A stretch of 64,000 nt of DNA. Source: Candidatus Bathyarchaeia archaeon. Lineage in GTDB: Archaea > Thermoproteota > Bathyarchaeia > Bathyarchaeales > Bathycorpusculaceae. Below the pieces are notes generated by a model. The model ran no database searches. It was not told the DNA's origin and saw nothing but the letters and a program-made list of their open reading frames with translations. Shown here one piece after another: positions 5,138 to 21,059 of this stretch. Location: contig CP166960.1 in NCBI GenBank assembly GCA_041447175.1, forward strand, positions 1,263,507 through 1,327,506. The letters run 5' to 3'. How positions within the stretch are numbered: position 1 is the stretch's first letter; each line of letters opens with the position of its first letter. Position numbers and translations under genes: made by a program.

Positions 5138-5422
5138 CTAATCTTCCTCTTCAAACAGTTTACGTGAATTTATCCGCAAGGCATCTTCTTGTCCGCCGAT
5201 AACACGGTAGGTGTTCTTTAGCGCCTTGTGGTGCAAAAACTTTTTCAGCAGAACCTTCACGTATTTCTTGTTCACGCCGATTGCATCTGTTTTGACGACA
5301 AGTTTGCCGTTGTCGTTGCTGACTTCGCCGCCTGACTTTTCTTTGAGGAAATCCGCCAACTGCGCGTATATGCTTTTCTCTTCGCCCTTCATTTTAGTGG
5401 CGTCAACTTTAACTTCAACCAT
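5138..5422 (-). CDS. rpl22e: eukaryote-type ribosomal protein eL22
   Basis: The 94-residue protein aligns along its whole length with eukaryotic eL22: an N-terminal VKVDATKMKGEEKSIYAQLA segment, a Gly/Asp turn, the LVVKTDAIG strand, then the diagnostic KKYVKVLLKKFLHHKALKN helix and YRVIGGQEDALRI, ending in an acidic EEED tail like eL22. eL22 binds large-subunit rRNA; it is general in eukaryotes and only patchily reported in archaea. The gene is monocistronic with its own promoter (GGTTATATGGGG about 35-45 nt upstream) and a GGGGTGA ribosome-binding site. The identification rests on the aligned core motif and length. Confidence 0.82.
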   Translation of the reverse strand: MVEVKVDATKMKGEEKSIYAQLADFLKEKSGGEVSNDNGKLVVKTDAIGVNKKYVKVLLKKFLHHKALKNTYRVIGGQEDALRINSRKLFEEED

Positions 5423-5554
5423 TGAAATTTCACCCCGCCTTTAAACGTAAAAGCCCCATATAACCTTAATGCACCCAAAACCACACTGCAACATTACAGT
5501 TCGAAAAACCAACTACGCACCAAAGAATTAGGACAGTACATAAGGTTTTTTATG

Positions 5555-5613
5555 TCAGTTCGCCCGTCGAGTCCGTATCACCGCCTAAGCTCAGTGACTC
5601 TAGGCTTCATCAT
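5555..5613 (-). ncRNA. predicted box C/D guide sRNA
   Basis: Reading the minus strand from 5613: box C ATGATGA (5613-5607), a 12-nt guide (5606-5595), box D' CTGA (5594-5591), a 9-nt spacer, box C' GTGATAC (5581-5575), a 16-nt guide (5574-5559) and box D CTGA (5558-5555). Order and spacing are those of archaeal C/D sRNAs. The second guide contains GACGGGCG, the complement of the universal 16S segment CGCCCGUC. Counting five nucleotides upstream of box D places methylation at the equivalent of E. coli C1402. A TATA-like TTCATAAG lies at 5647-5640, about 26 nt before the probable RNA start. Terminal pairing outside the boxes is weak. Confidence 0.68.
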
Positions 5614-5664
5614 CCAAACTAACTCAGATGCAAACCACTCTTATGAACCTTACAGAAACCAAAC

Positions 5665-5690
5665 AAAAAAAGCCGGGTAGGTAAGCTACC
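5665..5690 (-). terminator. hairpin plus T-tract after the PNPOx-family gene
   Basis: On the minus strand a GGTAG/CTACC stem with a 5-nt loop (5690-5676) is followed by CCGGC and seven T (5671-5665). It lies just past the stop of the FMN-type gene and upstream of the predicted C/D sRNA, so it may end the first transcript. It overlaps the two-copy element described at 5675-5717. Confidence 0.45.
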
Positions 5691-5717
5691 TTTCCGATAG
5701 ACCCCTTCCCCTCTACG
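5675..5717. other. conserved two-copy element, copy A
   Basis: A 43-nt stretch that aligns with 34495-34536 at 34 of 43 columns with one gap. Shared blocks are GGGTAG, AGCTA, CCGATAGACC and CCCTCTACG. A GGTAG-loop-CTACC hairpin is present; in copy B the same stem keeps pairing through a C-to-T change that gives G-U. The single-base indel argues against a coding origin. Both copies are followed by five or six T on the plus strand, and both lie 3' of a minus-strand gene. Orientation is unresolved. Confidence 0.5.
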
Positions 5718-6186
5718 CTTTTTCCCCGAACTTTACCATTTTTTTAGGCTCAAAATTGGTTGCCCAAGTCCAAGTGTACGCTTCACCCTTTGCGATGCGG
5801 AAAATAACCAGCCCCGGACTGGAAGCCGTTATGCCCATGGTTTTCAGAAAAGGCCTGTCCGCAACAACCTTTTCGCGCATATTTGGCGTGTCAAGAAACT
5901 CCACTTCACCCGTAACCCGCAGCATGATGCCGCCTTCGGTTTTGTTGTTAAACCAGCAGACTTCCGTTTTGGGGTTCTTCTTCAACTGCCCAACCAACTC
6001 TTTAACGGTTCCTGACTGGAAATAGAAGCCCGTTTCATCCGCATACCACATGGCTAACGCACGTACCCGGGGTTGCCCTTTCTCGTCAACCGTAGCTAGG
6101 TAGGCAACAGGGTTTTCATTAGCAAACTTTACACACTCTTCAAAATTCAACGCAAACACCTCATGTTCTTTTGAAGGCTGACACAT
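5713..6186 (-). CDS. pyridoxamine 5'-phosphate oxidase family (FMN split-barrel) protein
   Basis: The segments PVAYLATVDEKGQPRVRALAM, FYFQSGTVKELVGQLKKNP and TEVCWFNNKTEGGIMLRVTG are the strands of the PNPOx-like FMN-binding split barrel. At about 157 residues it is the short stand-alone form seen in many archaea and bacteria, whose members bind flavin or F420. True PNP oxidase function is not implied. The ATG at 6186 was chosen because the family fold begins shortly after it; the frame runs 26 codons further upstream into non-family sequence. A TATA-like CATTTAAAC lies near 6250-6261. The stop codon overlaps the end of the conserved element at 5675-5717. Confidence 0.82.
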   Translation of the reverse strand: MCQPSKEHEVFALNFEECVKFANENPVAYLATVDEKGQPRVRALAMWYADETGFYFQSGTVKELVGQLKKNPKTEVCWFNNKTEGGIMLRVTGEVEFLDTPNMREKVVADRPFLKTMGITASSPGLVIFRIAKGEAYTWTWATNFEPKKMVKFGEKA

Positions 6187-6388
6187 AAGAAACTTTCGAA
6201 AACAATCCCCTCCAACCGTCACGGCAAACACCTGAAGCGCCAAATTCACAAAGTTTAAATGCAACCCTATAATTCATATGAGGTTTCATCAGACTCTTGG
6301 ACTCACGCTTGGACATGAGAACCTTGACCAAGCAAAATCCACCGTCAGTCTGAGAAAAAGGACAGTTAACTAGGAGGTAGAAAAAAGA

Positions 6389-20981: not shown

Positions 20982-21059
20982 GGGCCGGTAGATCAGTCTG
21001 GCATGATCGCCGCGTTCGCAACGCGGAAGCCGCGGGTTCAAATCCCGCTCGGTCCACCA
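20982..21059 (+). tRNA. trnA: tRNA-Ala(CGC)
   Basis: A full cloverleaf is visible: acceptor GGGCCGG with TCGGTCC, D arm GATC...GATC, anticodon stem CCGCG/CGCGG with loop TTCGCAA (anticodon CGC at 21017-21019), T arm GCGGG-TTCAAAT-CCCGC, discriminator A and encoded CCA. The G3-U70 wobble pair, the main identity mark for alanine, is present. No intron is present. Confidence 0.96.

Follow-up and report, generated by a model that had tools for sequence, protein, structure and literature searches.

A widely conserved box C/D sRNA of Bathyarchaeia with a predicted guide to 16S C1402 and a covarying internal helix

Results

Locus and architecture of the sRNA gene

The window, a contiguous stretch of 64,000 nucleotides from a Candidatus Bathyarchaeia archaeon genome, harbors a box C/D sRNA gene flanked by genes for the ribosomal protein eL22 and a PNPOx-like protein (Table 1). 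Read 5' to 3', the minus strand at the sRNA has the sequence TTTGG-ATGATGA-AGCCTAGAGTCA-CTGA-GCTTAGGCG-GTGATAC-GGACTCGACGGGCGAA-CTGA-CAT, in which boxes C, D', C' and D follow one another in order, with intervening segments of 12 and 16 nt exactly as given in a preliminary description of the locus. The TATA-like box reported there corresponds to TTCATAAG at positions 5647-5640, and most close relatives carry a clear BRE/TATA-like sequence, CAAAAGCCTTAAG, at a distance similar to that of the window's GTAAGGTTCATAAG. Rfam returns no match in the sRNA stretch at the gathering threshold, while at a relaxed threshold the top minus-strand matches are archaeal C/D families, namely sR5 and sR12 at 19.4 bits each, both below their respective gathering scores of 40 and 38.

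Table 1. Coordinates of the sRNA gene, its parts and its neighbors (window numbering)
Feature	Position	Strand	Remarks
eL22 ribosomal protein gene	5138-5422	minus	conserved downstream neighbor; eukaryote-type; Pfam PF01776, 29.5 bits
Box C/D sRNA gene, conserved extent	5552-5618	minus	BLAST matches of relatives stop here; match of covariance model R1
Box D, CTGA	5555-5558	minus	conserved among relatives
Segment between C' and D, 16 nt	5559-5574	minus	includes GACGGGCG
D guide proper, CGACGGGCG	5561-5569	minus	pairs with 16S CGCCCGTCG; G5563 is position 5 before box D
D guide, also given as CGACGGGC		minus	
Internal helix, 3' strand GACTC	5569-5573	minus	covariation across relatives
Box C', GTGATAC	5575-5581	minus	RTGA core retained in almost all members
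Short closing hairpin GC..GC, D'-C' interval	5582-5590	minus	pairs about 95% kept, n = 78 sequences
Box D', CTGA	5591-5594	minus	NNGA in relatives, GA alone retained
D' segment, AGCCTAGAGTCA, 12 nt	5595-5606	minus	3' part (5601-5595) complementary to 23S helix 69
Internal helix, 5' strand GAGTC	5596-5600	minus	covaries with 5569-5573 across relatives
Box C, ATGATGA	5607-5613	minus	almost invariant among relatives
Putative BRE/TATA promoter element, GTAAGGTTCATAAG	5640-5653	minus	CAAAAGCCTTAAG-like sequence in relatives
PNPOx-like gene	5713-6264	minus	other flank of the sRNA; same strand as sRNA and eL22

Two further elements were noted in the window: a 46-nt dispersed repeat beginning with AAGCGTAGAGGGGAAGGGGTCTATCGGAAAGGTAGCTTACCTACC (5675-5720, minus strand), with about ten further copies in the genome and copies in one genome of the same genus, and a tRNA gene on the plus strand (20982-21056; Rfam RF00005, 59.1 bits).

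Conservation and distribution

A BLAST search with a 221-base query around the sRNA gives matches in 31 of 61 related genomes. In most of these relatives the similarity, the dispersed repeat apart, is confined to the C/D element (approximately query bases 103-168), and the aligned sequences retain box C, GAGTC, GAGC, RTGA, GACGGGC and CTGAC. A covariance model, R1, recovers the sRNA in its own genome at G000:C1:1269057-1269123 with 75.2 bits and detects it in 93 of the 189 genomes of the class that are at least 80% complete, distributed over the organism's own family (71 of 77), other families of the order (18) and the remainder of the class (4). The pattern TGATGA-gap-GACGGGC-NNN-CTGA occurs in 90 of the 189 genomes and its reversed control in none; where R1 finds nothing in one genus (g41 of family f6) and in families f9, f10 and f23, the pattern is likewise absent. 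In many relatives the eL22 start lies at most about 210 nt downstream of the D guide, on the same strand and in the same gene order.

Because the similarity is confined to the element in most relatives and the pattern stands at 90 genomes against none for its control, the sRNA lies far beyond chance expectation, and by these comparative criteria the element at 5552-5618 is a real and widely conserved box C/D sRNA. A fortuitous arrangement of short intergenic motifs with no RNA gene behind them, for which one might cite boxes of just 4-7 nt each and the missing Rfam match at threshold, has next to no probability and is already refuted by dozens of genomes in which conservation does not extend past the element, by the pattern control and by the covariation described below.

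Beyond the class, the R1 survey of Asgard archaea identifies 2 of 148 genomes, one of them a Heimdallarchaeota genome already found by another search, so that at the sensitivity of R1 the Asgard breadth is narrow. In the related RNA of Heimdallarchaeia, the two rRNA-complementary segments are preserved and the internal helix is not.

Several individual loci are recorded here in their own right. The single-contig genome G186:C1 has the sRNA in two differing copies (719274-719341 and 1740630-1740701) that share the D guide. Two genomes of one genus, L230 and L231, have GACGGACG in place of GACGGGCG, one of them with CTAA as box D, and possibly contain a decaying guide. Finally, C/D-like elements are found on contigs of Methanomassiliicoccales and other Euryarchaeota (L059 5795-5844, L113 2999-3048 and L093 3030-3076); L059 and L113 feature a 12-nt D guide, CTGACGGGCGAA, that would likewise address C1402, next to unrelated D' segments.

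The D guide is predicted to target 16S C1402

The organism's own 16S rRNA gene (G000:C1:566672-568166) includes ACACCGCCCGTCGTTCC, within which the D guide finds 9 bp of complementarity; the fifth nucleotide before box D falls inside the duplex and faces the third base of CGCCCGTCG, the equivalent of E. coli C1402. The 16S target CACACCGCCCGTCGTTCC recurs unchanged in 11 of 12 relatives with a match to the segment, the twelfth match carrying a mismatch, and relatives whose guide position 3 is A or T retain 8 bp that still cover position 5. The register between D guide and box D is constant in the loci found with R1, whose selection does not impose that spacing, and in all 99 compiled sequences, a set partly collected with the spacing fixed by the search pattern. 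The preliminary description had proposed this guide and had pointed to a 2'-O-methyl group at C1402 in bacteria; Cm1402 is indeed a known site in E. coli, and the pairing to the organism's own 16S rRNA, its conservation in relatives and the unchanging register to box D all uphold the proposal.

The genome encodes fibrillarin (300.7 bits) and Nop5 (247.5 bits) in adjacent genes, whereas RsmI (TIGR00096) does not reach the cut-off in any of 41 genomes, this one included, with positive bacterial controls. Given the presence of fibrillarin and Nop5 and the absence of RsmI, RNA-guided modification offers the best explanation for a Cm1402 in these organisms, and we consider it very probable that the D guide steers fibrillarin to the C1402 equivalent for 2'-O-methylation. 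Behind this prediction stand the gene and its boxes, the pairing potential, the conservation and the covariation, as well as the synteny with eL22 and the fact that the equivalent site in eukaryotes is methylated under snoRNA guidance. Counted against it are the shortness of the pairing to a universal 16S segment (9 bp), a C'-D spacing above the 10-12 nt described for such guides, the weak terminal stem outside boxes C and D, and a predicted fold energy, computed for this single sRNA sequence, no better than that of shuffles (z = -0.10).

We infer that the RNA is expressed and assembled into an RNP and that methylation ensues. The C/D and C'/D' kink-turns would be the assembly sites of L7Ae, Nop5 and fibrillarin, and the sRNA would bind 16S CGCCCGUCG through the guide CGACGGGCG. 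Methylation would then fall on the ribose opposite position 5, which belongs to the C1402 equivalent in the P-site part of the decoding center. The C'/D' half would adopt a kink-turn-like hairpin with a stem made of the D' segment and the 5' portion of the D guide, and in most lineages the D' segment could pair with 23S helix 69 instead.

The two guide regions form a covarying internal helix

The segment between C' and D measures 15-16 nt here and 12 to more than 15 nt in relatives, longer still in some. Published archaeal C/D guides have 10-12 nt, a usual rather than strictly defining feature, and the excess length of the present family lies in an internal helix, in which GAGTC(A) of the D' segment is matched by (T)GACTC immediately 5' to the D guide. 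This pairing, like the degenerate and sliding D' box discussed below, had been overlooked in the preliminary description. Its two strands change together: GAGCTA/TAGCTC replaces GAGTCA/TGACTC in Bathycorpusculum, and GAGTCT/AGACTC, GAGCC/GGCTC, GGGCG/CGCCC and GAGAGA/TCTCTC occur elsewhere. For the 29 non-standard left strands, the actual partner fits better than in every one of 1000 permutations. When pairs are counted over 78 distinct sequences, 26 cells show a change on both sides as opposed to 5.2 in shuffles, and none of 500 shuffles attains this number. Two caveats apply to these counts: the alignment had been fitted to the model, and kinship among the sequences inflates such values.

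On this comparative evidence, the D' segment and the 5' part of the D guide form a covarying internal helix. Together with a GA/GA core (NNGA in D', RTGA in C') closed by the GC..GC pairs, which looks like a kink-turn hairpin, it makes the second half of the sRNA an unusual hairpin and not simply another guide.

Complementarity of the D' segment to 23S helix 69

The preliminary description had assigned the D' segment to 23S rRNA around positions 2075-2085, and here its interpretation, otherwise borne out for the C/D sRNA as such and for the C1402 guide, does not hold: the matching sequence is absent from the organism's own 23S rRNA. Next to D', the best-matching site is TGACTCTC (G000:C1:1644385-1644378) in helix 69 (GGGAGTAACTCTGACTCTCTCAAGG), an assignment that, like the E. 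coli numbering 1917-1924, rests on by-eye alignment to the known E. coli sequence. Among the Bathyarchaeia relatives checked TGACTCTC is invariant, the matches in G002 and G006 looking like rRNA of other organisms. The D' segment GAGAGTCA forms 7 bp with this 3' strand of helix 69 here and 8-10 bp in many relatives, at a distance from the GA of D' that slides by up to 4 nt (2-6 nt) among relatives. A second guide with a fixed target register is thus not seen at D', nor is one needed for single-guide function. A different D' segment in deeper members of the class, ATTCAGCCTTA, was considered as a guide to 16S near position 900 and rejected, as that site is absent from the organism's own 16S rRNA. 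Separately, the 23S genes of two Heimdallarchaeia, L177 and L178, are interrupted immediately behind the helix 69 strand TGACTCTC by about 800 nt of inserted sequence, probably an rRNA intron.

A purely structural D' half, with C1402 as the only target and the match to helix 69 a coincidence, is quite plausible, if somewhat short of probable. It agrees with the sliding and degenerate D' box, with the compensatory changes in the helix and with deeper lineages that replace the D' segment and keep the D guide. Against it stands the retention of GAGAGTCA where the same helix partner is missing: Heimdallarchaeia L078 and L089 keep GAGAGTCA and CGACGGGCG with an internal helix of just 3 bp, their helix 69 also reading TGACTCTC; L233 keeps GAGAGTCA with essentially no helix; and in two other Bathyarchaeia families GAGAGTCA faces a shifted partner strand, ACTCTC instead of TGACTC. 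This retention despite helix shift or loss favors some role for pairing with helix 69.

One such role, which we regard as possible and only slightly less likely than the structural reading, is that of a second guide for 2'-O-methylation in the C1920/U1921 region of helix 69, whose target and C1402 face each other at intersubunit bridge B2a. The loci just listed speak for it, as do the invariance of TGACTCTC and the fact that helix 69 has been predicted to be a hot spot of methylation in archaea (PMC4644070). However, the sliding D' spacing makes a fixed methylation site doubtful, since it would move the predicted nucleotide from about 1920 to 1923; part of Bathycorpusculum has lost or reduced the complementarity to helix 69 while maintaining the internal helix by compensation; and rRNA matches of 7-8 nt are not rare by chance, with about 0.07 expected by our own arithmetic for a fixed 8-mer in 4.5 kb.

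It appears unlikely that the hairpin acts as a target mimic, in which the 5' part of the D guide would copy the helix 69 strand TGACTC and hold the D' segment until rRNA displaces it, so that target binding may be cooperative or the RNA may serve as a folding chaperone for helix 69. In most of the organism's own family, UGACUC in the sRNA exactly reproduces the helix 69 strand, the internal helix covaries, and C/D sRNAs with two spatially close targets have been proposed as chaperones (PMC4644070); yet any D' segment complementary to both partners would produce such mimicry automatically, and some lineages have the helix without helix 69 complementarity while others show the reverse. Equally doubtful is the most inclusive scenario, in which one sRNA would serve both faces of the bridge (C1402 in 16S helix 44 and 23S helix 69), with the helix 69 guide held in a target-copying hairpin that rRNA must displace and with a guide pair older than the split between Bathyarchaeia and Heimdallarchaeia.

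Because the distance to the GA of D' varies and some lineages keep the helix and lose the rRNA pairing, we take the C1402 guide to be the conserved function and consider pairing to helix 69 unproven. As that pairing would be available in most lineages in place of the internal stem, the D' segment would at most be an accessory or alternative guide.

Discussion

C1402 carries the sole 16S/18S ribose methylation listed as common to bacteria, where protein enzymes install it, and to archaea and eukaryotes, where C/D RNAs do. Equivalents of E. coli Cm1402 are Cm1369 in Pyrococcus abyssi, Cm1639 in yeast and Cm1703 in human (PMC11542601); SNORD43 (U43), yeast snR70 and plant AtU43 guide methylation at the equivalent site, Cm1645 in Arabidopsis (PMC3511168, PMC11542601); and archaeal sR12 of Pyrococcus and Sulfolobus was earlier proposed as a counterpart of snR70 with the same predicted site, the homology being left unresolved (PMC3511168). 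The target is therefore already known, C1402 guiding being established in eukaryotes and proposed for archaea. In the literature searched we found no work joining Bathyarchaeota and C/D sRNAs, and neither the Bathyarchaeia sRNA family nor its internal-helix architecture was found described. Predictions for seven species by Dennis et al. place few guides in helix 44 (1408, 1494) and many in helix 69, and the same authors suggest chaperone roles for double guides (PMC4644070).

The Bathyarchaeia guide family and its Heimdallarchaeia relative provide material for the open question of an archaeal ancestor of SNORD43/snR70, which earlier work was unable to settle through sR12 (PMC3511168). Furthermore, a covarying helix between the guide regions represents an archaeal C/D RNA design that might escape finders set up for 10-12 nt guides and a good D' box.

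Like SNORD43, snR70 and AtU43, the sRNA described here is a box C/D RNA aimed at the C1402 equivalent, the same target nucleotide; those RNAs are eukaryotic, homology beyond the boxes and a target-dictated guide is not demonstrable, and the SNORD43 and snR70 families of Rfam give no match to the sRNA even at an E value of 10. It shares with sR12 of Pyrococcus and Sulfolobus a predicted snR70-equivalent site, but the Rfam sR12 consensus (RF01147) lacks GACGGGCG and its sub-threshold match is through the boxes alone. With the canonical archaeal double-guide C/D sRNA it has in common the order of boxes and the position-5 rule for the D guide. It differs from that type in a C'-D interval of at least 15 nt in most members of the family, in a D' box reduced to NNGA, in a closing hairpin that would give a kink-turn rather than a K-loop, and in two guide regions that pair together. 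Bacterial RsmI acts at the same ribosomal site as a protein enzyme, unlike the RNA guide here, and bacterial TlyA, the enzyme for Cm1409 and Cm1920, is likewise a protein that modifies the same or neighboring ribosomal sites.
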